Source of the DNA: Dictyophora rubrovolvata
Taxonomy: Eukaryota > Basidiomycota > Agaricomycetes > Phallales > Phallaceae
NCBI GenBank assembly: GCA_029959195.1
Contig: CP114127.1
Span: 372,001 to 436,000, forward strand
Length of the DNA: 64,000 nucleotides
Direction of reading: 5' to 3'
Below, piece after piece: positions 10,700 through 41,397 of the stretch (the first letter of the stretch is position 1; every line of letters starts with the position of its first letter). The notes under the pieces are model-generated. The model did not search any database and was not told the origin of the DNA. It saw only the letters and a program-made list of their open reading frames with translations. Made by a program: the position numbers and the translations under genes.

Positions 10700-11646
10700 A
10701 TGTCTTCTCAATTATATCCTCCCTCACCATGGAGGGTTAACCTCATACCAGATCCAGTATCCTCATCAGACCCATTCCATCCTGGCAGGTGCTATGACAA
10801 AAGGCAACTGATCAAATATGATCATCAAGAGATCAGTGAGATTTTTGATATTGGGGCTATTGCCACCACAGTGATTAATTATTTTCATGCAAGTACTCTT
10901 CAACTGATGAAGCTCTTTGGATATAGTTCCATATTAAATTTGAAAGAGTTCATGATCCTTACCCAACTTATATTGCAATATATCTTGATGAAGTTTTGGT
11001 AAGGACTTCCTTCAATTCTGAGATTATTAACTACTAATCATAGTATAGGTAGATCATTTCTATATCTCAGTTGATGAGCAATGGGCAACTTCATTTGGTT
11101 GGCAAAAGAATGGGATGGAAGTGTTTAAATATAAATTTGGTCATCAGGATTGTATGTTTTCCACTTTTTTTTAAATACTTTTACTTTCACAGCTAATTGT
11201 TGATAGCCAGTCAGTTATACACTGGAACCCATTGGTTCTGCAATCCTGCACTCCTTGGTCACATCATTATCCAGTTCTATCATTTAACAGAGCAGGAAGC
11301 AGCCTCCTTTACATCAGATCCTTTCTATTTAAAAAGACCTATGAAAAGTAGATTTCATAAACCAAGATTAAATCTCTATGCAATGTATGTTTTTTATTTT
11401 ATTTTTTCATTAATTATAATAATTATATCTATAGATATGAGAAACAATCATCTAAACTTTCCTACTCAAGAAAGAGATTTCTTAATATACCTTATAAAAT
11501 TCCATCCCATTATATCTATTTTCAATATGATGATTGTAAGTTTTTTTATTTCAAAAAAATAAAAAACTTATTTTTTTTTAGCTGTCAGAAAGAAATATAA
11601 TTGCCCATTATTATTACAAACTCATTGTTATGATCTAAATTCATGA
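10700..11646 (+). CDS. Hypothetical protein, six exons, unknown function
   Basis: I do not recognise this protein. Six exons can be joined in one frame: 10700-10888, 10927-10998, 11049-11151, 11207-11384, 11435-11535 and 11582-11646, giving 235 residues from MSSQLYPPSPWRVNL to CYDLNS. The first intron uses a GC donor (GCAAGT at 10889); the other four are GT-AG. The spliced protein contains HDPYPTYIAIYLDEVL, DHFYISVDEQWATSFGWQK and TGTHWFCNPALLGH, rich in aromatic residues, with no signal peptide or membrane segment. Base composition is AT-rich, unlike the kinase gene next door, and it sits beside transposon DNA, so it could be a lineage-specific gene or cargo of a lost element. The consistent frame across five introns argues that it is or was a real gene. 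Confidence 0.5.
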
Positions 11647-12002
11647 CATCACTAATAATATAGATTCACAAGTACTATCCTTCATTTTATTGTATTTCAT
11701 AATTACTGTCAGGACTACTCACTTAGACTAGAGGGAGGGGATCCTAAGCAACTGTATTGGATAAATACTAACTAACTCACCTAGAAGGAGGGGATCCTAA
11801 GAGAACAAACTTAGGGATCCCTCCTCTAAGGCTACTAACTATATACTATGAAAAACGGCGAAAGTCACGCTGTCGCGCACCAAAATCTTCCTAATAAGGA
11901 AACGTTCTGATTTTTGGTTCAAAGCGGAGTGTCAAACTACCAAAAACTTAACCGATACACCACAGCCTCTCGAAATCAAAACCCTTACAAAAAAAAAAAA
12001 AA

Positions 12003-12602
12003 ATGGCTGCATTTTCATTTCACTATACATCATCAATCTCTTTGCCCATTCCAGCATCTCCCACCGAGTCATTACCCCCCTCCGACGATGAATCTATATC
12101 ACCTTTTCGTTTTTCGCCTTCCAGTCCAAGGACGTACGATTTGGATCTGCATACGACTCTTTATATCTATAGTTCCCAATATGCGAGTCTTGACATCGAC
12201 AAAGAAACGTACCTCCCGAAGTTCCCTCCACCTCTTATTATTCGTCAATGCAGAAGTTCGGATTTGGTTCACCCCGGTCTCATGTTTGGAGAAAAGGTTT
12301 ATATCGAGGAATGATTAGACTGATTTACAATTATCAACGTTTATTCTACACCCGAATCAGCCATTAAAGACTCATATCGGATTTGGTTAGTGACACAAGA
12401 AGGGTTCGAATTTACATTCCTGGTTCTAGATGTGCCAAGTCATTGGGTTGTCATGAAAAACATAAAAACGCAAAAACATAGCCCATATAGACCAGCCAAT
12501 CTTGTTCCTGTAGATCCTCAAATATCTCGTTTTTCACCCCATTCGCCAGAACCAATATCTCTCCCCTCTTCTCCATCCAAACAATCCTTCCGAAAGATCT
12601 GA
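12003..12602 (+). pseudogene. Two-frame element protein A, copy 1 (interrupted)
   Basis: Homolog of the intact protein A at 24348-25004. Shared blocks include DSPRTHDLD-like SPRTYDLDLHTTL, the core CRSSDLVHPGLMFG, YSTPESA-like segments and FLVLDVPSHW. The frame is interrupted in the middle, so a full product is not expected. It begins with a Ser/Pro-rich leader (SLPIPASPTESLPPSDDES). Function is unknown; the compact, strand-rich middle with conserved Trp and Pro looks like a small folded domain, which is only an impression. Confidence 0.5.
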
Positions 12603-12740
12603 CGTATTTGCTCAAACCTTCTTGGACAAAATTAGGACAAAAGGCTTGATTAGGATAAGCGATTAGATTTGTATTTCATCTCCTTCTTTCTTTTTGGACA
12701 TTTCATTAGCGCTTAAAAATTTTTGGTTAACTCATATCAT

Positions 12741-13320
12741 CATGTCGGACAATAACGATACTCCTACTTCCCCTATTCCCCTTTTTCAACTCCCTTTCTT
12801 CCCTTTTGAATATCGTTCTTCTCTCAGATTCGGACCCAACCCTAATTTCCTCTCACGACTTCGTATTTACAATACTCTTGTTTCTGAAATTGATGTCAAC
12901 CCCTCCACAATGCTTCCGATTACTCCACAGCCACTAATGGAGATTACTATTCTTTATGACGATCTGGAGATAGGATATCCACGAGCTTTAACCCTGTACG
13001 AACGAATCAATGTCAATGTCATGGACGAATCGTATGAGTTTGTCGAGTTCCTTTCAATAAATCGTCAAGAAGAATCAATCTGGAGACTGGTCTTTCGTCA
13101 TCAATTTCGAAGTTATATTCAATTCTTATTCATAGACGCACCCCTATCTGCCATCCCATCCCCTCCCAACTACTCTGTTGGAAATCAAACCCTCCCTTCC
13201 TATTCCGATCTCCAATCCAATCTCGTTCAAGATCTGGTATTGTTAAACGTTGCCATAGCCATTATTATTGCGCCACAGCTACGAAGAAGAAGATCTCGTC
13301 AACAAGAACCAGATCAGTAA
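12741..13320 (+). CDS. Two-frame element protein B, copy 1 (open)
   Basis: A 192-residue open frame from MSDNNDTPTSPIPLF to RRRSRQQEPDQ. It is homologous to the disrupted B frames at 25131-25595 and 27042-27506 (shared EIDVNP/LIDVNE, LYDDL.. and FIDAPL..PPP signatures). It also resembles protein A of the same element in segment order: a LxIY-like strand, IDVN(P)-TxLP, a DL..GY/VHP block, WxLVxxxQ and a final FxFLxIDAP/MVLDIP strand. I recognise no catalytic motif. It ends in a basic, Arg-rich tail that could bind nucleic acid. It is the only unbroken B frame of the three copies, so this copy may preserve the ancestral reading frame best. Whether it is expressed is unknown. Confidence 0.5.
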
Positions 13321-14381
13321 GAAGTTTGGGATAGTAAGATTATAGTTTTGGGTAAGAGGTAGCACGAGAAGTGCCAGATGGTGATTTTGATAAAGCTATG
13401 CTGGGAATCCGGTTTCATTGTTTTCTTTTGATCTCTTTTTGTTTCTCTTTTGTTTCTCTTTTGTTTCTCCTATTTCCCCTAACCACATATGCGATTCCCC
13501 TTTTTCTGTAATTGTATCCTCCATCGTTTTCTCCGTTTTCTTTTGTTTTTTTGTTCTCTTTTTGTTTCCTTTTATTATCATGGCGAATGATGAGTGATCA
13601 TTCTGCTTTCCTTTATATTTCCAAATGGTATATATACTGCATGTAAATAATTGTAACAGCAGCAATCTACTGGAACGGTTGTCTCAAGTTTAGTTCAGTT
13701 TAAGTCAAGTTCAAGTCAAGTTTCGTCTCTAGTCTATTTCTACGCTCACATCTATTTCTTTGGATTACTCTGAGTGAGGCCTCGGAGTATAAACTCAACG
13801 ATTCGTATTGTCGTTGAAGCCTTACTAACTTTAAAAACAGATTATCATCGCTGTATTATCGATGGCGTATTGACTCACCATTTTATCGCAACTCACATTT
13901 ATCGTCCCCCTCACACACACACGATCTTAGGATCATCATTTTTTTGTTGTTGTTGGTTTTATATCGACGCACACACACTCACTAAATATCATATTATTCC
14001 CCCACCCTCCTCCTTACGAAATCAGCACCAGGACCCGCTCCACGGAGATTAGACGGCCTCAAACAAAATATCTTCGTAGTTTTTCCAATTGTACATATAG
14101 CTACGACATTTAGCTATTATCTTCGGATCGTTACAACGCGCGGCCTTCAGTTCATGGACTGGGCGCGGATATGCACTGGTCCTGGACTTTTAGCTGGGGC
14201 CTAGGCCAGGGCTCTGATGAGAACGGGTGCTCAGTGCCCGTTGAAGGAAAAATGGGAATACGGAAGGAGAGGGAAATGCAAGAGATGGGATAGAATACGA
14301 GAAATATGGAAATAAATAAAATAGACCAGAACCAAAGATAAATGTAGAAAAATAAGGGGATGACGCTAGTGTACCCTGACA

Positions 14382-14903
14382 GTAACTAGGAGGAAGAAAG
14401 TGGAGGGAGCTTCAGTGCAAGGTCCCCAGGAGAATGTCACAGTACCTACTGTCAAGGCCACTTCCAAGCCAATTGCAAAGCCAGCTCCAGCTCCAGTTCC
14501 CTTTATGATGAAAAATCTGGACTCCCAATATTGTTTTCAGGTTCCATGCAAAGTACTAGCCCAGCCCACAGATATTTTTAATTGAATTTTAAGTCAGATG
14601 CTTACACTCAATGTTGAAGAATTACTTGTCCTGTGTCCTGATATTTGTAAATACTTCAAGGAAGTCATAATGACTCAACGAGTAGTAGTAGAAGGACCCA
14701 AGAGAGAAAACCCTGCCAAGGTCATAATGATGAACTCAGTGGCCACCTTTTCAGCTGAAGAAGACTCTAAAGACGGATTAGATACAATTGTATCTATACT
14801 GTTGCGTATTATAGACGTAACTGTTAACGACACTCACCAGGTTACAGGAATCCTCGATAGCAGCTGTCAAATCATTGTTATGTATAAAGATGTTTAGTCT
14901 GCA
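14382..14903 (+). mobile_element. Ty3/gypsy fossil: gag end and protease start (left piece)
   Basis: A broken piece of a Ty3/gypsy retrotransposon. Residues such as LTLNVEELLVLCPDICKYFK and the aspartic-protease-like GILDSSCQIIVM match the gag-protease junction of fungal gypsy elements. It carries several breaks and is not functional. The Plavaka transposon at 14904-23038 is inserted at its right edge, and related protease sequence resumes at 23039, so this retroelement is older than the DNA transposon. Confidence 0.7.
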
Positions 14904-15183
14904 TGTCACAAAAATCGACAGGGCCGGATCAGGCCTCGTCAGAACGGGGATACCTGACGGAACCTTGAATGGCTGGATAAGGTTCAAGACTTACATCTAG
15001 ATGGTCAGGACTGGTCAGGATGATCGGGATGATCAGGCCTTGATCAGAAACCCTGTGCTTGATCAGGACTATCAGGAGATGGTCAAGAATTCGAGTGAGG
15101 ATCAGGAAACTCCTGTCAGGATCTGGGCAGGGTTTACCAATCGGGATGACGTTGAGCGGATTGGGACATGTATACCAGATTAG
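14904..15183 (+). repeat. Left terminal and subterminal repeats of the Plavaka element
   Basis: The terminal TGTCACAAAAATCGACAGGG is followed by a cluster of CAGG-containing words (GTCAGGA, GATCAGG, ATCAGGA) spaced irregularly up to about 15130. Such subterminal clusters are binding sites for transposase in CACTA-like transposons; that role is inferred. From 15184 to 15840 the DNA is AT-rich with no coding frame I can support and may hold the promoter of the small coiled-coil gene. Confidence 0.65.
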
Positions 15184-15840
15184 GTTTTTTAATTCTCGAC
15201 TCACATGCTATTAAATAGCAAATGCATGCAAAACAACATCCAATTTTTATTATTTATTTGTAATTAAATTTTCAGATTATTTATTAACTAAGAATTACTA
15301 AGTAAATGCTACGGGCTTCACGGCCAATGTTGAAAGTACAAGTCTAAAAAAATTGGACGTAATCTGGGAAAAATGAAAGTGAAATCCTTACTTTTTAGCC
15401 TGGAATGCCACGGTCATAACATGACTTCAGAAAGGGCTTGTTCTTGCAATAGTAGTAGCAACAAGCAGGACGACCACGTTGAGATTAGAAACACCCCACG
15501 ATTATCTGCAATTGCAAATGTCCACTGAGGTAAGTTTGCCAAAAAAAACCACTTACTTTTATGTGACTTTGCTGTGATCCTGCACTCATAGGTCAAAATA
15601 GTGTGGGAGTCTTGGATAGACACTTACGGCTGCACCCAAATGGTGGAAAGGGAAAAAGAACTGTCTCGTAGGCATTGCATCCCCGTTGCTCTTATATGTG
15701 AGCCTATATGCCTTAGTAATCTGTTGCTACTTGAGTATCCCTGCATGCCACGAAACATGCAACCGGGAATTGCAGGCCGTTCACTACCACCTTTTTCCTC
15801 CCGCCTTTCACTCACAACATCACATAAAGTTAAAATTGCC

Positions 15841-16402
15841 ATGCTCTCTGGCTCTGAAACAGAACAAGACTTCGACTCAGAAACAGGTCTTCCATTCCCA
15901 GACCAGAAAAAAACCGTAAGTAATTTTACACATGTTGATTATTAATAGCTTGGAGAACTTAGGCCGTGATGCTCTTTAGGATCCAACTCAACATATGGTG
16001 ACCGATGTGTGTGCAGGCTTTGAACAGGTTTTGAACCGTGTTCGACTAAATGTAGATCTTGACATTTTAATTGATGAAATCCGGGCTGTCAAGAATGAGG
16101 TTAGAGCTGTGAGGACGGAGGTTAAAGGGCTGAGGAACGAGTTGCGGGCAGTTAGGGAAGACGTGACGGAAATAAGGACAACACAAAAAGTGATCTTTAG
16201 GTTGTCTGAGGTGACAAAGGAAGAAATGAGACAGTTAAAGATGTTGCAAAGAGACATGCTTAGGGTGTGTGAGGCGACAAAGGAAGAAGTGGAAGGAGGA
16301 AAGAATTATCAAAGGGCTTCGGTGGTGGAGATGCATAGTGTTTTTCAGGCTTGTGTTCAAGGGTTTGCGAATATTGCTGATGTATTAGAAAATAAGCCCT
16401 AA
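15841..16402 (+). CDS. Coiled-coil protein carried by the Plavaka element
   Basis: Two exons (15841-15915 and 15980-16402) give 165 residues starting MLSGSETEQDFDSETGLPF. The body is one long predicted coiled coil with heptad-like repeats (IRAVKNEVRAVRTEVKGLR, LRAVREDVTEIRTTQK). The C-terminus is VQGFANIADVLENKP. No enzyme motif is seen. It converges with the leftward cargo gene. Similar small coiled-coil frames may help assemble the transposition complex, but this is a guess. It could also be an unrelated captured gene. Frame and intron are intact. Confidence 0.55.
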
Positions 16403-17266
16403 TTAAAAACAGTTTATTTATTGTTTCTATATTAAAGGGTCTAAACATTGAATTTTTCAACATGTCCTAGTCCGAACACTGCGGCGAAGTGGTTGGCTAG
16501 GTCTTCGAGGTTGGTTGTCATCTGTTTCATTGTCGCTTTGAGTGGCATTGTGCTTTTGGATGACCTGCGTCCTCTTGCATTTGGATGTTTTTGGTTGACT
16601 CGTCTGAGGTGGTGGGTGATGGGAATATGAGATATTACTAGTATCTGTTAAAGGCGATGAACAATTGCCAGGAATTTTGGGGGCGGTCAGAGTGAAATAC
16701 TGCATTAATCCAGTATCCGTTAGCTTAACAATTTGATACAAGTCAACAACAGATACCATTCTTGGCACAGTGGCTTGGGTCTCGTGTTCTTGACTATAAC
16801 CAGCAGATGCATCCTGAGATACAGCTGGAGCTGGTGTGTGTCAAGTGGACACATTCTGAGTTCCAGTTTGAGCAGGTGTATTGGTTCGAGTCCACAAGTT
16901 CCAAGGTCCAGTTCGAGCAGGCCCAGGTGTGTTTTGAGTAGTTTGGACGGGAGTGTTAGTTTGAGTCCATGTGTTCCAAGGAGGCCCGGGTGTGTTTTGA
17001 GGAGTTTGAGTGGGAGTGTGGGTTCGAGCAGACACATTCCAAGATCCAGTTTAAGCGGGAGTGTTGGTTCGAGTCCATGTATCCCAAGGTCCCATTCGAG
17101 CAGGCCCAGGTGTGTTTTGAGTAGTTTGGGCGGGAGTATTGGTTTGAGCCCATGTGTTCCAAGATTCAGTTTGAGCAGGTGTGTGAATTCGGGTTGATGC
17201 GTGCTGAAATCCAGTTTGAGCGGGTATGTTGGTTTGGGTTTGACTGGACGTGTTTGGGAATCCAGT
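16403..17266 (-). repeat. Degenerate Thr/Pro/Gln/Asn-rich coding repeats downstream of the cargo gene
   Basis: On the leftward strand this holds about seven imperfect repeats of 60-80 bases encoding variants of NTPGPARTGPW, TRTNTPAQT and TPTQTPQ. They lie in the same reading frame as the cargo gene that ends at 17267. The frame continues, interrupted only by a few stop codons, to 16457, where it ends in a basic tail (RRPSQPLRRSVRTRTC). This suggests that the cargo protein once had, or by alternative splicing still has, a long low-complexity C-terminal tail. Confidence 0.5.
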
Positions 17267-18830
17267 TTAGGAAAACTCATCACCTCCGTCAGCATCCCAC
17301 TCTGGAGGACTTCTGGGTTCTTCAGGGGATGTAATTGAATGTGTCGCAGGAGGTTCATGCTCATGGGTGGCGCTGTCTACACACCGGGTTTCTCTATGGG
17401 TTGGAATATTTGCTACATGCAATTCTTGATCTGAAACGTCTTGTTCATTGACATCTTCTTCCGCACTCAGCCCAGCCAGGAGTCCATCCAAGTTTTCATC
17501 ATCGGAGGCCGGCAGGGTAGTAGTACTCGCAGAGGCAGGGTCTGTGGTGCCGGGATAGAATATCTCATTCCAGACCTTGAAGACATCAAGTACATGAGGC
17601 TGTTTATTATACAAGCCTTTGTGAAGATACTTCGAGTAATAGTCATAATCTCGCTGGTAGGTGATTCCCGTGATTGGGCCGTGTGACAGTAAACTCTTGT
17701 CAGACGATGCCATATAGCGTGCCTTGTGAAAGATTTGAGTTCAACATATTGGGATTAAATCATACAAACCTACCAGAATCGCTGCCGCAGCAATTGCTCC
17801 AGGCATGATACATCGAATAGCCCACTTTGACTCTAGGGTTACATGCCGCTCCTTCTTGGTCACATGCCCTTCTGGGAGACCTTTGAGAGAGCCAACACCA
17901 CGTACAAGGGCTGAATATATCTAATTTTAACATAAATACAGTTGCTGAGAAAGGGCGATGATTTAGCACTTACTCTCATCAATATGGGATGGCGAAAGAT
18001 AGTCCAGTCTTTGCCGGTTTCATTGAGGTCTTCAGCATATAAGATGGGTGACAGGGTGTGGTAAACATCTTTCCCATCTTTTTGCCCAGCAAATCCAATG
18101 AGCTTTTTGAAGGATGCGCTGCGGGAGGTCTCATCGTTAAAAACTTCGTTGGAGCATTGGAGAATCAAAGGTCCTGCTTCACGAACCTGACCGGCAGCAT
18201 TCGATCTTTGTTGTGTCATCTCACACATAAACTAAAAACATATTAGCGATGCCTAAGTCAGAGCATTTCACTCACCTGCTTAAAAAACGGCTCACTGCTG
18301 ATGTCGGGGTGCAATATTGAAGGGACAGTAGCTAGCAGGTCAGACAGTAATCCCTGCTGTTGCATGTCTGGGGAGTGGTAATGGTTCCTCGGCACATATA
18401 ACAGGTCACTCTCTAGCCCAAATATCTGACTTTCTGAGGGTTTGATCCAGAAGGCAGACATATAGGTGAATTGTCTCGCCACGCGCTTGACTTTGTTATG
18501 GGTAACTGTGTTACTGATAAACATGTTTTTGTTCTTCTTCATCTGCTTATCATCTTCCAGCACTTCAGCAGGCAACCGCTGGTTCGGATGCGCCGGAAGT
18601 TGACGGTTCAAGACATTGGCCATCTCCTTATCTTTGGTGGTCAGCTGTACAGTTAGTTGATTGATTTCGGCTTGTTGTCTCCTGAGAATCTTGAACCGGA
18701 TATGAATCATATTTTCAAAAAGGTCAAAAAGGTCGATACGACCTACCTGTTCGTATGTTCGGATAGACGTGTCTGATTCATCACTGGAATCATCCAGCGG
18801 ACCATCAGAATCATGACAGGCCCTAACCAT
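17267..18830 (-). CDS. Plavaka cargo protein, unknown function (DUF6698-like)
   Basis: Four exons (18830-18276, 18231-17974, 17920-17774, 17722-17267) join in frame to 471 residues. The start MVRACHDSDGPLDD follows an in-frame leader that is not needed. Features: acidic N-terminus, a predicted coiled coil around residues 45-75 (FKILRRQQAEINQLTVQLTT), then a folded core with FWIKPSESQIFGLESDLLYV, GPLILQCSNEVFNDETSRS, DWTIFRHPILMRIYSALVRG and YQRDYDYYSKYLHKGLY, and an acidic tail. The layout (..IFRHP..MR...LVRG..SLKG, then a segment about a binding partner near the C-terminus) recalls basidiomycete DUF6698 proteins, but I am not sure. These proteins are repeatedly found beside transposase genes in agaric genomes, so it is probably element cargo. 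It is transcribed away from the transposase gene. Confidence 0.6.
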
Positions 18831-19420
18831 GGGGATACTGAAAGATAGCGCAGGTCGCAAAAGACGAAACTCAACGAGGAGAATGGGAGGAGTAATATGT
18901 GTTAAAAGATGATAGAGAATGAGATCCATGCAAGTATAAGTACTTTGCTCCAGCATGACATAAGACGTCATGACAACGGATTGAAGTAAAAATATATTTT
19001 TCATATGATCGAAAAGACAGAGATAGAGCCGGTTGGGATGTGGTGGCATTGAAAGGCAAGGAACGGGTGTCTGATCAAGGGCACGGGTATAGATCTGAGA
19101 GGTAAGATGTCGGCCGAATCTCCCAGGGCTAGAGACTCACCAGATCAATATAGACATGTCTCCTCATAGTTTGCCAGATATCCCTGTGAGAGACTGCATG
19201 ACTGAGGAGAAGAGAGATGACCCAGCACATGCTTGCAAACCGCGAAGCATCAAGTGGCAGAGTGACATTAATCTCAAAGTTCACCGACTGTCACACATGT
19301 CACACTGGCTGCTCTCCATGAAGTTTGCCGGCGCAATGGATATGATCTCAAGTTTATAATAAAGGTATGTCTCATTCATTCATTGTAATTCAGAGTGATT
19401 TATGTGGTGTAAATACAGAC
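18831..19420. promoter_or_regulatory. Divergent promoter region inside the Plavaka element
   Basis: The 590 bases between the leftward cargo gene and the rightward transposase gene. A likely 5' leader intron for the transposase lies at about 19364-19418 (GTATGT...TACAG). No repeat or TATA box stands out. Open frames extending into it on both strands look incidental. Confidence 0.4.
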
Positions 19421-22400
19421 ATGTGGATTGACAAGCCACGTGATGTCCAACTACAAAATGATGAAGCTTGGTGCGGCATATGTGCACAAGTCAGGAAGAG
19501 ACGTCGGATTGACAAGCACATTGAAAGCTGTCGGTACCAAACCATTGAATCACCTGCATCACAAGCAAGGCAATCATCCCATGCTGATGCTGATTCTCAT
19601 GTCGCTGATTCAGCGTTCCCCTCAGCCCCAGATGAAGGACCAGGTATGGCCGATTCGAATGCCTGTGTATTGCCCAATTGACCATTTTTATAGATGAACC
19701 TGAGTATGAAGGAGGACCCAAGTCTGAAGAAGAATTCGAGTCTGAAGAAGAAGCTTCTAATCCGCATCAAGGCAGTGCGCCGGCAAGTAATAGCCCGCAG
19801 GAGTTTATACAGGTCATTCCCCATCCAGACAGTGGAATGCCCCCCAGCATAATTGTCTTGGATGAACCCAATCCACCACACACGTCACCACAACATCATC
19901 CTACATCTAGCCTCTATGATAGCCAGCCTTGGGCTCCCTTCCGAATGCGAGCTGATTTTGAGTTTTGTCGTACAATGGTCACCAAAGCACTTGACCGAGA
20001 GATGATAGAAACATTGTTGGCAGGATTCAACGGCCAGTGGGCGAAGGAGAGCGATATAACTATCCAGAACTACAAAGAATATCAGCAGTGTTTGTCTGCT
20101 GCTCGCAAATTTGGTGTTCAAGTAAGTATGCATCAGTCGCCTCCCTGCGGGATTTCATCTTGATATAAACGCTCGAAGTTTCAGGAAGCAACAGTGGTAC
20201 ATAACTTCAAGGGCAAAGATTACACATTCACCTTTCAATACCGCGACCCATGGCGATGTGTATTAGACTGGGTCACCGATCCGACATTAGCAGAATCAAT
20301 CTCTTGGTATCCTGTTGAGAAGTGGCTATATCACGAGGGTCGAATTACTCGGTTATATGATGAACTTAATACTGGTGAGCGTTGGTGGGAAATTCAGGTA
20401 AATATCCACTGGTTGTAAGTTCCAGCTCATGCAATGATCTGTGACTTCACCAGGAATCTCTGCCCAAAGACGATGAACATCCGCATTGTTTCCTTCCACT
20501 GCACTTGTGGCTCGATAAAAGCAGTGTAGCGAAGACCGTCACCAAACATCCTATAATACTCCGGGCTGGCTTCCTCCCAAGTGCCATTCGCAACAGCTCT
20601 GGGAATGGCGGAGGTGTCTTGATCGGGTACATGCCAATAGTAGGTCATTGTTTAGGTACTCACCTAATATGATATACCTGACATATTCCCAGATTACAGA
20701 AAACAATAGTTCAGCTGAAGAAGAAGATGATTCCATGACCTCCGTCGAGTTTGCGAGGTTCAAATGAGAAGTGTATCACAAGATTCACCATGTTATTTTC
20801 CGCACAATTCATGAGCACTCTCATGACGGTGACACCGTCCCCTGTGGGGATGAAATCACCCGCATCTTACATCTGGGAATCTTTATCCACGCCATTGACA
20901 ATGAGGAGGCATGTTGTATATGTGGAACGCGTGGGGCGCAAGCCAATTACCCATGCCCATGTTGTTTAACTCATCGTCTCTCACTCACTCAACTAACGGC
21001 GTCACCCAACCTTCGGACTCAGGAACACATGAAAGCGATTTTCGAAGAAGCATCAATGCTCCCTGCCACTGCAGCTGAAAAGCTCCTCCGGGACTCAGGA
21101 CTACATTTAGTCAAAGTAAGTATTTGTGCTCCTGAATCAATCTGAGATTGAAGCGTGTCCAGAATGCATTTTGGAGTATTGCCAACTCCGATCCATACTT
21201 CGCATATTCTTATGATATGCTACATGCCATGGACTCCGGCGAATGGGGCAAACACCAGTGGGTGTTATTGACGGAGAAGATACTAAATGTGCACGATCTT
21301 AGGCAGCTTACTCTTAAGTAAGCATATTCAGTAACCAACATTCTCAATTTTGATTATTTCGCCCCTTTTAAGCATGCGGGAGATTCCCAGATGGCGCTCA
21401 CTCAAGCATTTTAAACATGTCATGGGCATAGATTTTGCGGACGGCAACAGCTATCGTGACATATTAAAGGTATGTATTCTATGGTTCGATAATGCAATGT
21501 ACTTATAATTGTCAGTGCATTATATTTTGCTTAGTGAGCATACTTCCCGCAAAGTCACCAGTGATACATTGCTTCCATACTTTGGCCGTCATCCGGAGTC
21601 TCGCCGTTCTCCATCCTGTCTCCCGAGAACATATAGCGTATTTGATGGAGTGTCTCCCTACCTATGAAAAGTATTGCACGGTAAGTCCACCACCATGTCA
21701 CTAATAATCGTGTACTAATTATTTAGGAATTAACACGACTTTACGGCAAAAACTACGTGTACCCGAAGCATCATGCCCTTGTCCATTTGCCCTTTGATTT
21801 GGAAATGAAGGGTTCAACAGACAACTATACCACACGGCCTGGTGAAGGATTTCAGCAAGAGGTGCAGCAAGCTTATGATCAGACAAATTTTCGTGACACA
21901 GAGGCACAGGTGCGCATCTACTTAACATAGATTCTCACAAAATGTGTATATACTCCCTCAGATGACTCGGATTGATGAGAATCAGGAGGCGATAGCCAGA
22001 ATAACCCTGGCCGTGAATGAATATGACAAGGCTGAACAAGCGGCTGTTGAGGAGGAGACTAATAATGACGGGGACAAGCTGCCTCCAGCAGTAATAGGAG
22101 GTGATCATTGGAAGATGGGATCCCCGTTGCCCACGATTTCTGTGGAGCAGTGGGAGATAGATGCGACTGGGAGACGTCCTTTCAATCAGTTTGAGAGCCG
22201 GCTGAGGGTTTTTTTAACGGAATATTTACCTGACACTGAAGAGCCGTTAAATTCGTTCCAGGTATGCTTTCAATTGTTCAAATTGCCGTCCTAATAATAT
22301 TTAGATTAAACCTTATCAATGTATTTATCTGAAGTACCACTCTCTAGAAAACTGGCAAGAAAAGGAAGACATCTTACGATGTAATCCGGAATTCTTTGGT

Positions 22401-22745
22401 CGACCCCGTTATGACTGTGTTGTGATCAACACAGAGCCTATATCTTTCGGTCGTATTCACGCTCTATTTACCTACAAAAGTCCCTCTCGAAAATCTCATA
22501 ATATTGCATTGATAACATATTTAGAACCTTCATCATGGAAACTCAAAACGAAATGGGAGGGCTGTCAAGTCTTCAAAGAGTCCAATAAAGCCGAGTTCGT
22601 CTTTGCGAAATACCTCATCCGCGGCTGCCACATGATCCCAGCATTCGACAAGTCAGGCAGAATTTTCTATCTCAACGATTTAGTGGACTCGGATGCTTTT
22701 CTTCGATTTTTCCTCAAGACATGGCTCTACCAGACAGATATATGA
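19421..22745 (+). pseudogene. Plavaka transposase (one nonsense codon)
   Basis: Eleven exons (19421-19643, 19694-20121, 20185-20397, 20454-20639, 20693-21115, 21163-21317, 21373-21469, 21516-21680, 21727-21909, 21962-22261, 22305-22745) join to about 937 codons. The N-terminus has a C-x2-C...H-x3-C finger (CGICAQVRKRRRIDKHIESC). The central part has WAPFRMRADFEF, ERWWEIQ, HLWLDKSSVAK, GVLIGYMPI, a second Cys cluster (CCICGTRG...CPCC) and SDPYFAYSYDMLHAMDSGEW, all typical of Plavaka transposases. The C-terminus (IKPYQCIYLKYHSL ... FLKTWLYQTDI) is a region common in these proteins. A single TGA at 20765-20767, in a context where CGA is expected, interrupts the frame; all other exons are clean, so the element died recently or the codon is polymorphic. 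An upstream in-frame ATG at 19367 is possible but overlaps the putative leader intron. Confidence 0.75.
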
Positions 22746-23038
22746 CACAGCATGTATATATAGCAACGAATAAACAGTTTTTTAATCTGCATAGCTGGTA
22801 CTGACAGTGCTTACGAACTTGATAGTCGCGACCGGTATCCGTCAGTCCGTCAGCACCAAATCAGGCCGTCAGCCACCGTCAGGACCTTCGGGCTCGGTCA
22901 GTCTAGGGCTCTGCCAGTCACCGGCACTCGTGGCCCATCTCCATCAGTGACCATCAGTCGTCGTCAGTCGCCGTCAGGACCTTCAGGCTCTGTCAGATCG
23001 GGACCCTGCCAGATCAGGCCCGAGCAATTTTTGCGACA
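22746..23038 (+). repeat. Right subterminal repeats and terminus of the Plavaka element
   Basis: Rich in CGTCAG/GTCAGG words (for example CCGTCAGTCCGTCAG and CCGTCAGGACCTTC-like units), ending with AATTTTTGCGACA. The terminus is the inverted partner of the left end at 14904. Confidence 0.65.
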
Positions 23039-23999
23039 CACTCCATACACCTTTACACTCTGATCAGACACTGGATATGGAATCAGCTAATGGCACCATG
23101 AACAAGACATTAGGGCTTTTACCTCGTGTCAAGATTTCGGTTGGTAATATACACCTATTCTGCCCTGTCCAAGTCGTTGAAAATGCCTCATTTGAACTCC
23201 TATTGGACTGTCTGTTTACTACGTGTGATCAGATAGTGGTTCAGGAATTATTCAATGGAGATATGGAAGTAACGCTTACTGATCCTCACTCAGGAGCTGC
23301 CATGACATGCCAGACTTGTCCTAGAGGCCATGGGCTGAAGGTCAAACCAGACAATGTGTCTGTAAATTTTCATTAGTTGAGGATTCCAGTTTAGGAGAAG
23401 ACATTAAAAAACTGTTAGTTGAAATTTTACCTAAGTCTTGCCATTCCATTTCTTGTCTTTCTTGTTATTCTGTTTCTTGTCAGTCTGTTTGCCATGCTCT
23501 GTGTGCCACACCTTCCTAATTTGGAAGTCTGATCCTATTCCGGTTATTTCCATACTCACCCCACATCTCCATATCAATCCCATTCCATACTTGTCAGTAC
23601 TCTGTCCAGACTTCAAGTCTGTCACCTTCCTTATAGGGAAACTAGCCCCTGGCTCTTAGTAATAAGGAACAAAGATTTTATAATCATCATCCCTAGCTGT
23701 GTTCAACCATATGCTACCTTTCCTTATTTTGTTCTTATCCCCATTCCCATAGTTTCATTCCCTTTTGTATTTAAACCCCCAGCTTCCAGCTGTGGATCCC
23801 CAGTCTGAATATCAGTTTCATCTTGTACTCTCTAAGTCCCTGCCACTCCAAAATTGAGAAATAGATAAAGCTGGGTGAGTGGGCACAGCTTATAAGCTGA
23901 AGCCAAGTCCCTCGTCCCGTACTTCTGTACTCTATCTTCCGTCTGTCCCTAGCAGTCTGGACTTTCTCGGAGATATCCGGGATAGTTCTGAGCCGCTGT
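23039..23999 (+). mobile_element. Ty3/gypsy fossil: protease piece and LTR-like segment
   Basis: From 23077 a frame with ESANGTMNKTLGLLPRV and FELLLDCLFTTCDQIVV matches the second half of a gypsy protease region, the continuation of the family seen at 14382-14903. From about 23430 the sequence changes to a pyrimidine-rich segment with an internal TATTTAAACCCC promoter-like motif, and it is partly similar to 29265-29512, so it is probably a degraded LTR of the same retroelement. Most of the internal region is absent. The fossil is broken in several places and old. Confidence 0.6.
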
Positions 24000-24207
24000 T
24001 GTAACGATCTAAAGATAAAAGCTAAATGTTGTAGCTAAATATACTATTGGAAAAACTACAAAGATATTTGTTTGAGGTCGTCTAGTCTCCATGGAGTGGG
24101 TCCTGGTGCTGATTTCGTGAAGAGGAAGTGGTGGGGGACAATATGATATGACGAGTGTGTGAGTGTCAATATCAAACCAAATAACAACAATAAAAAAAAT
24201 AACGATC
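24000..24207 (+). repeat. Left terminal inverted repeat of copy 2
   Basis: Reverse complement of 26217-26423 with scattered substitutions; also the reverse complement of the end of copy 1 (13930-14135). Landmarks are GTCCTGGTGCTGATTTCGT and GATCCTAAGATC. Confidence 0.7.
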
Positions 24208-24347
24208 CTAAGATCTTGTGTGTTGTCGCGTACCAAAACCTTCCTCATTTGGTATTTAGGTTGTCCTTCCTAAAGCGGACATTCAAATTTCCCTTCCTGG
24301 ATAAACGACTTCCAACTACCCAAATTCCTTTATTCAGAAATAATAAA

Positions 24348-25004
24348 ATGTTAAAATTTCGTCTATCATCCTCTCTTTCCCTCAAAAATCCTACTTCTCC
24401 CCCTATTCCCCGAGAACCATCCCCAGAAGAAGATGTCATTCCTCTGTTATTTTGTTATACTCATGATAGTCCTCGCACTCACGATTTGGATATCGAGACA
24501 ACTTTATTCACTTATAACTCGCCTACTCCAATCCTCGAACTTAATCCCACAACTCTCCTCCCAGTCTACTCGTACAAGGTTCCTAGAAGTATCCATAAAT
24601 GTCGAAGTTCAGATATCGTACATCCCTTCTTGGCGTTCGGAAGAGAAGTCTACGTCGAGAAGGAACTAAGATGGTTTACAGTAACTCATGTTTATTCTAC
24701 GCCAGAATCAGCCTTACAAGATTCATACCGTGTCTGGTTAACGACACAAGTTGGGTTAGAATACATGATAATGGTTCTGGACATTCCTAGTCGATGGATC
24801 CTATCATCATGCAATCACCAACCAGTCTTAGGATTCTATCAACCTGCCAATCCCCTTCCCAAAGAACTAACAAACTCCTCATCTAACCATAATTCACCTC
24901 CCCTATCTCCAACTTCTTCTGATTTAACAATACGCCCTCCTCGATATCAACAAACAATCCGCACACTTCGACATGTTTGTTCTGGATTCCTAGAACGAGC
25001 TTGA
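24348..25004 (+). CDS. Two-frame element protein A, copy 2 (open)
   Basis: An open frame of 218 residues, MLKFRLSSSLSLKNPTSPP to CSGFLERA. A Pro/Ser-rich leader with acidic EPSPEED is followed by a compact domain: THDLDIETTLFTYN, LELNPTTLLPVYS, the invariant CRSSDIVHPF, VEKELRWFTVTHVYSTPESA, DSYRVWLTTQVGLEY and MIMVLDIPSRWI. A variable low-complexity tail ends in a helix. Copies 1 and 3 carry interrupted versions. The conserved core suggests a folded protein once under selection. Segment order matches protein B of the same element, so A and B look like ancient duplicates. Function unknown; no nuclease, helicase or polymerase motif. Confidence 0.55.
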   Translation: MLKFRLSSSLSLKNPTSPPIPREPSPEEDVIPLLFCYTHDSPRTHDLDIETTLFTYNSPTPILELNPTTLLPVYSYKVPRSIHKCRSSDIVHPFLAFGREVYVEKELRWFTVTHVYSTPESALQDSYRVWLTTQVGLEYMIMVLDIPSRWILSSCNHQPVLGFYQPANPLPKELTNSSSNHNSPPLSPTSSDLTIRPPRYQQTIRTLRHVCSGFLERA

Positions 25005-25130
25005 TCAGTTTGGAACATAATAAAGAACAAAAATAATGTATAAGGGTAAACATCTATTTTAATCATCTGATCTCTTTTTGTTTCGGAGTTCCAAGTCTCT
25101 TCAGCCTTACTCTATCCCTTCACTACCATA

Positions 25131-25595
25131 ATGATTGACCTCACAGCCTCTTACACCATGGCATCATCCAATCGCCCACATGGCGATTTCAAAACGGTCA
25201 TACGAGAATATGTCCTCCGCCGAAAAGGACTAATCGATGTCAACGAAGAAACCTTGTTACCCTTTCACGATGGGTACATCCAACATACGCTCTACTACAA
25301 TGATTTAAGGTTATCGCCAATACTTCGTTTATATGATCAATATCATATCAGAGTAAAGGGACATTCGTATGAACTTGCAGCATATCTACAGATGCATTGA
25401 GATAGACGGCTAGCTTGGCGACTCATCTTCCAATGATCTGTGCTTTTAGCCAGACAAGTCCTATTCCTTGATGCCCCTTTAGATGTGTTCCCATACCCTC
25501 CCAGTTTCTATTCTAACCCTCCCAATCCCCTTACTCCATCCCCTCGCTACGAGGCAACTAATTCAGTAACATTTTATTTGCCGACGACTAGATGA
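25131..25595 (+). pseudogene. Two-frame element protein B, copy 2 (interrupted)
   Basis: Starts MIDLTASYTMASSNRPH and matches the open B frame of copy 1 in VLRRKGLIDVNEETLLPF, LRLSPILRLYDQYHIRVKG, SYELAAYLQMH and LFLDAPLDVFPYPP. It is interrupted and shorter. The downstream stretch to 25920 is non-coding, containing a purine-rich block and T-rich runs. Confidence 0.5.
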
Positions 25596-27041
25596 CCTCG
25601 ACTGATGGAAGAAGAGGATGTACGACTCATAAAGAGGAGAAGAATAAGAGATTAAGAAAATGGAGGAATCGTTGCTATGGCAGTATGGTGCGAAAATGGT
25701 AAAAAGGAGAGTATCGCTTTCTTCCAAATTGGGACTGTTTGTATTTGTTGTACTTCTATTTCCTCCCTGAAAAATTCCTCATTGCTTGTTGTTCTCCCCA
25801 AATATAACTCTTCCTCTCTTTTTCTTCTTTCTTTTTCTTTTATTGTGTCATGAAAACGGTTTATAATTGCTTATTGTTAAACCTCCTAAAAATCCCAAAA
25901 TATTTCTTTTGTTTTAAATGGTATAAATACTGCATGTAAATACGTGTAACAGCAGCAATCTACCGGAACAGTTGTCTCAAGTTTAGTTTAAGTCAAGTTC
26001 AAGTCAAGGTTTTGTCTCTAGTCTATTTCTATGCTCACGTCTATTGCTTTGGATTACTCTGAGTGAGGCCTTGGAGTATAAACTCAATGATTCGTATTAT
26101 TGTTGAAGCCTTACTAACTTTAAACAGATTATCATTGCTATATTATTGACGGTGTATTGACACACCATTTTATTGCAAACTCACATTTATCGTCCCCCTC
26201 ACACACACACGATTTTAGGATCATCATTTTTTTGTTGTTGTTGGTTTTATATCGACACACACACACTCGCTAAATATCATATTATTCCTCCACCCTCCTC
26301 CTTACGAAATCAGCACCAGGACCCACTCCACGGAGACTAGATGGCCTCAAACAAAATATCTTTGTAGTTTTTCTGATTGTATATATAGCTACAACATTTA
26401 GCTATTATCTTCAGATCATTACAGTGTGTGAGAGGGATGATGAATATGGATTCGCAATAAAATAGTATGATAATACACTGTCAATAATACAGCAATAGTA
26501 AACTGTTAAAGTTAGTAAGGCTTCAACGACAATACAAATCATTGAGTTTATACTCCGAGGCTTCACTCAGAGTAATCCAAAGTAATAGATGTGAGCGTAG
26601 AAATAGACTAGAGATAAAACCTTGACTTGAACTTGACTTAAACTGAACTAAAACTTGAGACAACTGTTCCGGTAGATTGCTGCTGTTACATGTATTTACA
26701 TGCAGTATTTATACCATTTAGAATAAAAGAAATATTTTTGGAAATTTTAGGAGGTTTAACAATAAGCAATTGTAAACTGTTTTCATGAAACAATAAAAGA
26801 AAAAGAAAGAAGAAAAAGAGAAGAAGAGTTACAATTGGGGAGATCAACAAGCAATAAGGAATTTTTCAGGGAGGAAATAGAAGTACAACAAGCACAAACA
26901 GTCCTAATTTGGAAGAAAAGCGATACTCTCCTTTTTACTATTTTCACACCATACTGCCACAGCAACGATTCCTCCATTTTCCTAATCTCTTACTCCTCTC
27001 TTCTTTATGAGTCATACATCCTCTTCTTCCATCGGTCAAGG

Positions 27042-27506
27042 TCATCTAGTCGTCAGCAAATAAAATGTTACTGAATTAGTTGCCTTGTAGCAAGGGGATG
27101 GAGTTAGGGGATTGGGAGGATTAGAGTAGAAACTGGGAGGGTATGGGAACACATCTAAAGGGGCATCAAAGAATAGGACTTGTCTGGCTAAAAGCACAAA
27201 TCATTGGAAGATGAGTCATCAAGATAGCTGTCCATCCCGATGCATCTGTAGATATGCTGCAAGTTCATATGAATGCCCCTTTACTCTAATATGATATTGA
27301 TCATATAAACAAAATATTGGCGGTAACCTTAAATCATCATAGTAGAGTGTATGTTGGATGTACCCATCATGAAAGGGTAACAAGGTTTCTTTGTTGATAT
27401 CAATTAGTCCTTTTCGACAGAGGACATATTCTCGTATGACTGTTTTGAAATCATCATGTGGACGATGGGAAGATGACATGGTGTAAGAGGCTGTGAGGTT
27501 GATCAT
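27042..27506 (-). pseudogene. Two-frame element protein B, copy 3 (interrupted)
   Basis: MINLTASYTMSSSHRPHDDF to the end of the homologous region. Very similar to copy 2's B frame over its first 90 codons (LIDINKETLLPFHDGYIQ, QYHIRVKGHSYELAAYL). Not expected to give a full product. Confidence 0.5.
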
Positions 27507-27629
27507 TATAGTAATAAAGGGGTAGAGTAAGGCTGAAGAAACTTGAAACTCCGAAACAAAAAGAAACCAAATAATTAAAATAGAAGTTTGTCCTTATTCG
27601 TTATTTTTGTTCTTTATGTTCCAAACTGA

Positions 27630-28283
27630 TCAAGCTCGTTCCAGGAAACTAGAACAGACTCGTTGAAGTGTGTGAAGGGTTTGTTGATATCGGGGAGGTT
27701 GTATGGTTAGATCGGATGAAGTCGGGGAATGAGGGGATGAAGGATTATTGAAAGATGCTTTAGGTTCTTTGGGAATAGGATTTGCTGAGCGATAAAATCC
27801 TAAGACTGGTTGGTGATTACATGTTGATAAGATCCACCGACTTGGAACATCGAGGACCATTATCACGTATTCTAATCCAACTTGTATTGTTAACCAAACA
27901 CGATATGAATCTTGTAAGGCTGCTACTCGAGTAGAATAAACATGTGTGACTGTAAACTATTTTAATTCTTGTTCAACATAAACTTCTCTTCTGAAGGCCA
28001 TGAAGGGGTGTATGATATCTGAACTTCAACACTTATGGATATCTTGGGAAATCTTGGGCAAGTAAACGGGGAGGAGAGTCATGGGATCAAGTTTGAGGAT
28101 TGGAGTAGGCGAGTAATAAGTGAATAAAGTTGTCTCAATATCCAGATTGTGAGTGTGGGGACTATCATGAGTATAATGAAATAACGGAGGAATGACATCT
28201 TCTTCTGGGGATGGTTCTCGGGAAATAGAGGGAGAAGTAGGATTTTTGAGGGAAAGAGAGGATGATAGACAAAATTTGAACAT
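27630..28283 (-). pseudogene. Two-frame element protein A, copy 3 (interrupted)
   Basis: Starts MFKFCLSSSLSLKNPTSPS and ends VCSSFLERA, parallel to copy 2's open A frame. Interrupted in its middle third, where the conserved Trp/Phe strand should be. Substitutions against copy 2 are largely transitions. Confidence 0.5.
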
Positions 28284-28407
28284 TTTATTATTTCTGAATG
28301 AAGGAATTTGGGTGGTTGGAAGTTGTTTATCCAGGAAGGGAAATTTGAATGTCCACTTTAGGAAGAACAACCTAAATACCAAATGGGGAAGATTTTGGTG
28401 CGCAACA

Positions 28408-29512
28408 CCATACATAACACTGTTTCAAAATCATTAGAAGAAATAGACTCTACTATGTTTTCCCCTTATATTGATCCACCCACTTGTTTGCCCCTGTATT
28501 CCAAAGCCCCTCTGTCAGGGTACGCTAGCATCATCCCCTTATTTTCCTTTATTTATCTTCGGTTCTGGTTTATCTTATTCATTTCCTTATTTCTAGTATT
28601 TTATCCCATTTCCTGCATTCCCCCTTCCTTCCGTATTCCCTTCTTTCCCTCCAACGGGCGCTGAGCACCCGTTCCCATCAGAGCCATGGCCTAGGCCCCG
28701 GCTAAAAGTCCGGGACTGGCGCGTATCCATGCCCAGTCCATGAACCGAAGGCCACGTATGGCCTTCGCCATTTTTTCATAGTATATAGTTAGTAGCCCTA
28801 GAGGAGGGATCCCTAAGTTTGTTCTCTTAGGATCCCCTCCCTCTAGGTGAGTTAGTATTTCTACCAAATACATTTTACTTAGGATCCCCTCCCTCTAGTC
28901 TGAGTGAGTAGCCCTGACACCCTCATATATCACCTGTTGAAGCATCACCTGCATATTGCTCGGCCCCTCCTGTAGTTTCATGTCATACCCCTGTTACTGA
29001 TGAATTTAGGCCGCTGTCGAATTGGGAACTTGTCCTGAAAACAGCTGAAATTTTGGAACAAATTGAAGAAAAAAGGAACTTACGAGGAAGAATTTTGAAG
29101 AAGATTGCTTTGTTGCCACACTATCCACATCAAGGGGGTCTTATCCATTTTGGATGGTCCATGGTGCCTGTTCCCCCGTTATCTCACTTGGCAACACTAC
29201 CAGATGAAGATTTACTCACATATGGAAAATATCTTGACTCACTGTATAAATTTCATTCACACAGTCTGTCACGCCCCACATGCCCTGTAGTCCAAATCCG
29301 GACATATCTGAACTCCGTACTCTATTCCATCCCACTCCCCCAACTCCGCATTCTTGTCTGTACCCTGTATCACAGAATTTCCTTATGGAGAATTCTGTCC
29401 TGCACACTTAACAACAAGGTACCTAGATTATATTATCATCATCTTGGCTCGCACTAGTCAGTTTCCACCTTTCCTTATTTGTTGTTATCCCCATTTCTGT
29501 AGTTCCGCTCCT
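28408..29512 (+). mobile_element. Ty3/gypsy fossil: 3' coding end and LTR start, split by a solo LTR
   Basis: The sequence on both sides of the solo LTR (28513-28919) belongs to one degraded gypsy coding end. The right part reads ILEQIEEKRNLRGRILKKI and HYPHQGGLIHFGW before the frame ends. At about 29265 TGTCACGCCCCACATG begins an LTR-like segment that resembles 23430-23999 and is cut at 29513 by another LTR. Broken and old; the solo LTRs are younger. Confidence 0.6.
28513..28919 (-). mobile_element. Solo LTR, 407 bases, with 5-base target duplication
   Basis: Ends TGTCAGGG...CCCTGACA, flanked by CCCTC on both sides (28508-28512 and 28920-28924), the hallmark of retroelement integration. Inverted relative to the copy at 29513-29918, with very few differences between them, so this is the younger LTR layer. 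It is inserted in a gypsy coding remnant. Confidence 0.82.
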
Positions 29513-29918
29513 TGTCAGGGCTACTCACTCAGACTAGAGGGAGGGGATCCTAAGTAAAATATATTTGGTAGAAATACTAACTCACCTAGAGGGAGGGGAT
29601 CCTAAGAGAACAAACTTAGGGATCCCTCCTCTAGGGCTACTAACTATATACTATGAAAAACAGTGAAGGCCACATGCAGCCTTTGGTTCATGGACTGGGC
29701 ACGGATACACGCCGGTCCCGGACTTTTAGCCGGGGCCTAGGCCATGGCTCTGATGGGAATGGGCGCTCAGCACCCGTTGGAGGGAAAGAAGGGAATACAG
29801 AAGGAAGGGGGAATGCAGGAGATGGGATAAAATACGAGAAATAAGGAAATGAATAAAATAAACCAGAACCGAAGATAAACGAAGGAAAATAAGAGGACAA
29901 CGCTAGCATACCCTGACA
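29513..29918 (+). mobile_element. Solo LTR, 406 bases, same family
   Basis: Starts TGTCAGGGCTACTC, ends GCATACCCTGACA. Nearly identical to 28513-28919 in inverted orientation and more distant from 11707-14381. The flanking five bases (CTCCT and GAATT) differ, so it may have arisen by recombination between elements or its target duplication has decayed. It interrupts an older LTR-like segment. Confidence 0.78.
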
Positions 29919-40343: not shown

Positions 40344-41397
40344 TCAGGCTGACGATTCCGGCGTCTGGCCTACGACTTTTTCTCTCCATTGCCGTCCTAT
40401 CTGATCATAATTATCCGGACCATTTAAGTGAGGGAAAGGGTCACTTGGCTCGGGTCTATGATGAATTTAGTAGGTACTGTCGAGTTTTAGGGGCTACTTA
40501 CACCCCCAGGAATTCGATCAACGGTTTCCAACCATCTGCCACATCGAAAACAAGCAATTTCTTAGGCGGAATAAGCTGTGTGATGTATTGGTTATGTTTT
40601 AGAAGTGCAACCTCTGGATTCGTGTTTAATTGACCGCTGTGATACTGATCTAATAGATGGCCTTTGAATTCAAGGTTGCATGATATGAGTGCTTCTGCAA
40701 GGTTTCCTTACCATGATAAAAGTGCGTCCAGTCTGAATAACCAATTTTCTTCACTTTTGCTAAGGATATATGATCAGTTTCGGTGGCTGTTCCCCAGGAG
40801 ATTCTCTGTTCGAGATCGGTATATCGGGCGTGGAATTTCATCGTGGTGTTCTTCATACTTTCAGCCCATTTTACGGCGTCCCTAACTGTCTTTTAAAAAG
40901 AAAGAGAAAGCTCAGATAATAAAATATCTCATGATCTGGCTAATACTAACAAGAATGAATTTCGCATCGGGATATGCTTTGTACAACGGCTTAGCCAGAA
41001 CCGCCGTCATGCTGTCTACAGCCGAAACGTATCCGCGGAAAAGATCAGCGAGGACTTCAGGTGAAGCGTTATCAGCATCTTTTGTCAGGAGGTTAACTAT
41101 AGTGTCATAGAACCTTCATTATTATGCCATACCTTTGGCGACTCCGGCGAATTTACCCCAGAAATCAGCCTGAGTAATGTCAACTTTTAGGCGAAAAGGG
41201 TGATAACAAGGTCCGAAGCCTAGGGTTTCTAGTGCTGAACAAAGGCTGAGAGTCTGTGAATGCATGATTTTATGTTAATCAACGGTGGCAAATAGAAACA
41301 AGAAATTGAATATTGATCTTACTCCCGTTCGTCCGAGACCTAATCCTATGACCTTCAATTGCACAGGCTCATCGCGTCCGTCTGTGATAGTGGCCAT
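40344..41397 (-). CDS. Sulfotransfer_4 family protein, copy B
   Basis: Start MATITDGRDEPVQLKVIGLG, then GLGRTG at the end of exon 1 (41397-41323) and TLSLCSALETLGFGPCY in exon 2. The phosphate-binding segment YPDAKFIL/TVRDAVKW, HNQYITQLIPPKKLLVFDV and GWKPLIEFLGVPEPSDPFP are conserved. It ends VVGQTPESSA. About 350 bases separate the tail of this gene's stop from upstream features. All exon borders match copies A and C in place and phase, showing recent tandem duplication. No lesion seen. Confidence 0.82.

Follow-up and report, generated by a model that had tools for sequence, protein, structure and literature searches.

The 64,000-nucleotide window analysed here (C11:372001–436000 of the 28.2-Mb, 11-contig genome of Dictyophora rubrovolvata) contains three copies of a mobile element, here termed the S unit, which carries two tandem reading frames, A and B, and whose anatomy resembles that of a long terminal repeat (LTR). 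Three copies with common ends and two tandem frames had been described in a first-pass annotation of this stretch, and all three are present. Copy 1 (subfamily S1; 11871–14135, plus strand; 2265 bp) is a complete element with the ends TGTCGCGC..TCGTTACA. The borders previously assigned to it are exact and are flanked by a target-site duplication (TSD) of ACGC at 11867–11870 on the 5′ side and 14136–14139 on the 3′ side. Its frame A (12003–12632, plus strand) is open to 12314 only and interrupted beyond, while its frame B (12742–13320, plus strand) is open and encodes 192 amino acids. These are followed by a 3′ block (13623–14135, plus strand) that is common to S1 and S2, starts with a TATA-like motif (TATATATA, 13629–13636) and may comprise a promoter, R and U5.

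The other two copies belong to subfamily S2 and had been delimited as 24000–26423 and 26424–28407, which is incorrect, since 24000–24223 belongs to the minus-strand copy 3 and forms its 3′ end. Copy 2 (24224–26423, plus strand; 2200 bp) is complete, has GTGT at both 24220–24223 and 26424–26427, and is nested in the minus-strand copy 3, which its insertion split into the 3′ end and a remainder (26424–28407, minus strand). Frame A of copy 2 (24348–25004, plus strand) is open and encodes 218 amino acids, frame B (25131–25400, plus strand) retains the first 89 amino acids and is interrupted beyond, and the 3′ block (25916–26423, plus strand) contains TATAAATA. Copy 3 retains N-terminal fragments of frame A (28029–28283, minus strand) and frame B (27222–27506, minus strand), and its TSD, ATGG/ACAG in the orientation of the element, is consistent with a decayed ACGG. 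Of the three copies, only copy 2 thus has an open frame A and only copy 1 an open frame B, each frame being broken in the other two. The host repeat into which copy 1 inserted occurs a second time without the insertion at 29576–29787 (plus strand), where the match to the left flank, up to 11868, ends at 29673 and the match to the right flank, from 14140, begins at 29676. A second empty site was found by comparing an S3 copy (locus L032) with L030 606–850. These two empty sites support insertion and, together with the TSDs and the nesting, bear out the earlier designation as a mobile-element family.

The S unit is 2.2–2.35 kb in length, starts with TGTYR and ends with TTACA, which fits the LTR-type consensus TGTNR..YNACA. 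Only ∼5 bp (TGTnr) are shared in inverted orientation between the two ends and there are no long inverted repeats. The 4-bp TSD was exact in 10 of 27 distinct complete copies, differed by transitions only in 11 and did not match in 6. The 27 copies represent 29 rows minus L013, which repeats L012, and L016, which is a palindromic double of L015; one further copy, L022, does not snap to TTACA and was left outside the set. The six mismatches include nested or recombined copies at L024, whose row probably joins two copies, and at L027, where two rows have one 3′ end in common. At L027 1227–5136 an S1 copy is joined to an S2 3′ end with CCAG/CCAG as the outer TSD, and this looks like an insertion followed by recombination between the common 3′ blocks. 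All 21 copies with a matching TSD have C/T followed by G/A in the middle (CG or its TG/CA decay) and 15 of them keep CG in at least one half, although the chance of a transition-tolerant match is ∼1/16 and a few of the inexact matches could be due to chance. Ten further copies were inspected, eight of them at both ends and the two on C10 not as far as the 3′ end, giving four exact TSDs, three with transitions and one non-match, and all seven that match keep CG in at least one half. The TSDs of S units include CCGG, CCGT and ACGG, the outer bases being free. Both Ginger1 transposons and Gypsy LTRs have TGTNR ends, and the TSDs of Ginger1 are CCGG or CCGT/ACGG (PMC2836005; see also PMC3601003). 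The S units act like something inserted by an integrase of the Gypsy/Ginger1 type. They had been placed in an unknown class. A and B indeed match no named family in the libraries searched, but the class is not wholly unknown, as the ends and TSD are of the LTR/Gypsy-integrase/Ginger1 type.

Three copies is a figure for the window and not for the family. A degenerate 18-base pattern for the 5′ end occurs 162 times genome-wide and, with up to 2 mismatches allowed, the TATA motif that heads the 3′ block occurs 150 times, both counts including some fragments or palindromic doubles, while the controls (for the 5′ end, the pattern read backwards) gave 0. Protein searches of the genome, in which the best 150 of 210 candidates for A and the best 150 of 184 for B were scored, and our own sorting of the copies gave three subfamilies, S1 (copy 1), S2 (copies 2 and 3) and S3 (for example L030, L032 and L033). 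S1 looks the youngest. By hand count, at least 34 of its A frames are near full length without a stop among the best 150 of 210 matches, and the nearest S1 copies read from different loci have 1–2 differences per 700 outside CpG-type changes, so the S1 burst looks recent. Decay at CpG accounts for 6 of the 7 differences between the copies at L066 and L027 (CG to TG or CA), and this share varies by pair (13 of 20 for L066 versus copy 1 and 12 of 33 for L066 versus L031).

A and B, each of ∼175–220 residues, are the only conserved long frames found in S units, and A precedes B in all three subfamilies. Among the frames compared, A is 39–51% identical between S1 and S2 and 26–34% between S3 and S1 or S2, and B is 28–35% identical between subfamilies. 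Nothing convincing was found when A/B proteins were searched against Pfam (6 proteins, best E 0.038), PDB (2 proteins, best E 0.55) and PHROGs (5 proteins, best E 0.18), and NCBIfam gave no match up to E 1 (5 proteins), in agreement with the original statement that they match no named family. A search of 11600–14400 against Rfam led nowhere, and viral contigs matched the patterns but yielded no relatives by tblastn. A and B are under purifying selection. For A, dN/dS was 0.29–0.37 in S2 pairs with a dS of ∼0.2–0.26, 0.23–0.40 between S1 and S2, and 0.35–0.60 between S3 and S2, while for B it was 0.12 between S3 and S3b. Some of the very close pairs approach or exceed neutrality (0.76–0.90 for S2 A and 1.41 for S1 B), as expected from decay after insertion, and the values are saturated for A between S1 and S3 and for most comparisons of B between subfamilies.

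A common order of motifs in A and B had been noted, with the suggestion that they are ancient duplicates if their profiles match significantly. Alignment of the two profiles with hhalign gave a score of 34.1 over 110 columns with an E of 1.6e-4, although the HH-suite probability was a modest 50%. None of 300 column shuffles reached this score (maximum 19.2) and reversed B scored 13.7. An earlier run, with another alignment setting and before two B rows were trimmed, gave an E of 3.9e-4 and a probability of 36% over 56 columns. The common order therefore holds, and A and B are likely, but not certain, to be paralogues that arose by duplication. AlphaFold models built from window-only alignments had mean pLDDT values of 40.7 and 39.2 and are both too poor for use. 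As a guess, A and B might be accessory, beta-rich proteins that bind nucleic acid or a host factor and have basic C-terminal tails.

An alignment of two S1, two S2 and one S3 copy revealed a border in similarity at the TATA box, which is conserved and from which the 510-bp 3′ block extends to the end of the element. In two comparisons of S1 with S2 by 100-column windows, they are 29–76% alike (mostly 42–64%) upstream of the TATA box and 83–99% alike downstream of it. The 3′ blocks of copies 1 and 2 are 91.7% alike, and that of copy 1 is 79–95.5% like those of other S2 copies. S3 shares the block at ∼54–75%, with 43–47% in the last 51 columns. The block appears to be laid out like a promoter followed by R and U5, with the divergent part upstream as a putative U3. 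The LTR subfamilies of crapaud in Podospora anserina likewise have a divergent U3 and a conserved R-U5, for which template switching is one proposed cause; in contrast to S, crapaud has full copies, and the available part of the source does not mention genes in its LTR (PMC10787394).

We tentatively propose that S units are solo LTRs of a Gypsy-type retrotransposon lineage with a long U3 that encodes A and B. This is favoured over a unit mobilized in trans because the two ends are unlike beyond TGTNR and because the 3′ block resembles promoter-R-U5. The lineage would now be represented only by single LTRs, in which A and B, as ancient duplicates of each other, would occupy the U3, and the 510-bp block downstream of them would hold a promoter with its TATA box, then R and U5. 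An integrase supplied in trans would make cuts staggered by 4 bp around a CpG (NCGN). During reverse transcription, the R-U5 block of one RNA would become attached to the U3 of a second one, giving rise to new subfamilies, and recombination between the long direct repeats of full-length copies would leave a single LTR. Like Ty3/Gypsy solo LTRs, S units have TGTNR..YNACA ends without longer inverted repeats, a 4-bp TSD, a TATA box located several hundred bp before the 3′ end, and a conserved 3′ block with a divergent 5′ part. They differ in their length of 2.2 kb, the two selected genes inside, the CpG-centred TSD, and the lack of any paired or full-length copy among those examined. The sag gene of mouse mammary tumour virus (MMTV) is also a protein gene inside an LTR, although it is a single unrelated gene of a vertebrate retrovirus.

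A number of observations weigh against the solo-LTR proposal, the heaviest being that no full-length element or internal remnant was found in the copies examined. Positions taken from the listed A/B protein matches were compared for 75 S1 copies (B matches with at least 77% identity over most of the frame), 33 S2 copies (the higher-scoring A matches) and 36 S3 copies (our sorting of B matches). Weaker or split S1 rows were left out, including one at C2:2370705 that lies next to C2:2364497 in direct orientation, the two differing in identity (83 and 94%). Pairs were taken as matched if their bit scores were no more than 1.0 apart, a proxy that sequence comparison bore out for two S1 pairs only, and by this measure there were no matched direct pairs within 40 kb at any of the 75, 33 and 36 positions. 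S1 has eight direct pairs within 16 kb, in each of which the two members differ in their identity to copy 1 and so are unlikely to be an LTR pair, and nine within 40 kb, none matched in score; S2 and S3 have one direct pair each within 40 kb, neither of them matched. In loci of at least 5 kb, the only S sequences repeated in direct order belong to copies that are unlike each other (the window, L009, L018 and L020), and the same is true of short S pieces at L015–L017. The two S1 copies ∼6 kb apart at L018, for example, are 86.7% alike but are 97.1% and 84.4% like copy 1. The TSD on both sides of 21 of the 27 complete copies argues that no internal region is attached, and no primer-binding site or polypurine tract was found, these 21 being bounded by their TSDs and the other flanks being judged by eye over 8–16 bases. 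Since the closest S1 copies read from different loci are only 1–2 in 700 apart outside CpG-type changes, full-length copies should survive. Moreover, the sharp border at the TATA box could also represent a constrained block that is homogenized by gene conversion.

The arrangement of neighbouring copies bears on how a collapse might occur. S1 has 10 inverted pairs within 16 kb, of which 5 are matched, and its score-matched pairs within 40 kb comprise six inverted and no direct ones, a pattern that is as expected if similar direct repeats recombine away. Linked inverted twins at C7:1931770–1940770 (L045–L048, L065 and L066) are identical in 700 of 700 bases read and those at C4:2490700–2501120 (L049–L052, L067 and L068) in 500 of 500. 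An inverted S2 pair on C2 (L017 3805–6088 and L018 2853–5136) is 99.74% identical over 2284 positions, the next nearest among the copies compared being at 93.8%. The twins lie at unrelated sites with different flanks, and each copy, except the right-hand one on C4, has a TSD of its own (exact or with transitions). One of the six S1 inverted pairs, on C1, adjoins a true 8.1-kb inverted duplication in which the flanks are identical too. This duplication (L015 1793–9901 and L016 405–8513, C1 ∼878–897 kb) is 100% identical and is a palindrome or an assembly artefact. A Gypsy pair on C8 (∼694 and 713 kb) also has equal scores and inverted order. The twins would be explained by gene conversion acting on inverted repeats while direct ones are lost, and this combination would also make LTR pairs collapse faster. 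Biased local movement is suggested as the other option, although local transposition by itself would not favour inversion.

Two other readings were considered and rejected. S units are not the LTRs of adjacent Gypsy elements, since at L029, L030 and L031 they are inserted into or beside Gypsy genes. An S–S repeat was absent in the 9.9 kb read at these candidate Gypsy loci, the S copies at L030 and L031 have their own TSDs, and that at L029 lacks its last 100-odd bases. The initially unpaired 5′ ends are not larger autonomous relatives either, as the ∼0.8 kb inspected at each of the nine showed either an S fragment or a short S end that runs into other sequence, with no other gene behind it. 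The intact-looking Gypsy locus L044 showed no internal repeat in 9.8 kb, so no LTR TSD could be read there; at 7915–8544 it has a 210-codon open frame that follows a separate Gypsy-bearing open frame of 2455 codons.

Somewhat less likely in our view, but a close rival, is that S is a stand-alone unit that moves at the DNA level, with LTR-like ends on which a Gypsy or Ginger1-type integrase encoded elsewhere in the genome acts in trans, and that A and B are element-specific helpers, for example in binding the ends or in protection from silencing. It would account for the complete copies being single, 21 of the 27 with a TSD on both sides, for the zero of 75 S1 positions with a matched direct partner within 40 kb, and for the S1 copies being single in spite of a burst that looks recent. 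The TGTNR ends and the 4-bp TSD with a central CG recall those of Ginger1, and S TSDs include all three of its forms, CCGG, CCGT and ACGG (PMC2836005). However, Ginger1 has terminal inverted repeats (TIRs) of ∼40–270 bp where S shares only ∼5 bp, S has no integrase gene in the unit and much freer outer TSD positions, and Ginger1 is reported in that source from four animal species only. The TATA-led 3′ block inside the unit would also have no obvious role. Integrase domains are present in the genome, where matches to RVT_1 (75), rve (69) and RVT_2 (24) were found. By a 4.5-kb rule, 60 of the 69 rve matches lie near a reverse transcriptase (44 near RVT_1 and 16 near RVT_2) and 9 near neither. 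Seven of these nine are in frames of less than 240 residues, and the two longer ones (763 and 934 residues) have the same scores as copia-type and Gypsy-type matches elsewhere. No free Ginger-type integrase stood out among the 69 matches, the nine without a reverse transcriptase not having been read, and no rve match on C11 lies inside any of the three window copies. We file the S units in neither family, Ginger1 failing on the long TIRs and integrase and an LTR retrotransposon on the paired LTRs and internal region.

It is improbable that A and B together make up a new small two-subunit integrase or transposase, unlike DDE integrases in sequence, and that S is a compact autonomous transposon with CpG-centred 4-bp targets. 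They are the only conserved long frames found and are under purifying selection down to 26% identity, the ends and TSD are uniform across the family, and no other gene was found behind the nine initially unpaired 5′ ends in the ∼0.8 kb inspected at each. Against this, library searches gave no match to a DDE, HUH or recombinase family, the model of A, although of low confidence, is mainly beta and unlike the RNase H fold, no conserved DDE-like spacing was seen by eye in the alignment, and the proteins have only ∼175–220 residues. It is very improbable that A and B were captured or derived from the host and play no part in movement, the element being an otherwise ordinary non-autonomous repeat: no homologue with a known role was found and copies with broken A or B exist, but dN/dS is below 1 within and between subfamilies, except in very close or saturated pairs, and A and B keep the same order in all three subfamilies.

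No such element appeared among the papers listed by literature searches, most subscription papers and Repbase being outside the scope of the search. If the solo-LTR proposal is correct, an LTR whose U3 holds two selected paralogous genes would, to our knowledge, be of a new kind, and element proteins could still be expressed from each solo LTR after the rest of the element is lost. If S is a stand-alone unit, its family, for which 162 5′ ends were counted and which has recently been active, would move without a recognizable enzyme of its own. In either case, the A/B protein family deserves to be solved, and the rule that targets are centred on CpG offers a sharp lead to the integrase that can be checked.

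The window also contains a second single-unit repeat of ∼407 bp with the ends TGTCAGGG..CCCTGACA, present at 28513–28919, where it has by eye a 5-bp TSD (CCCTC), and at 29513–29918. Copies of this repeat sit inside S units at L012, L022 and L028. Two direct repeats of ∼750 bp that are 69% alike lie further along the window at 40496–41256 and 42035–42775.

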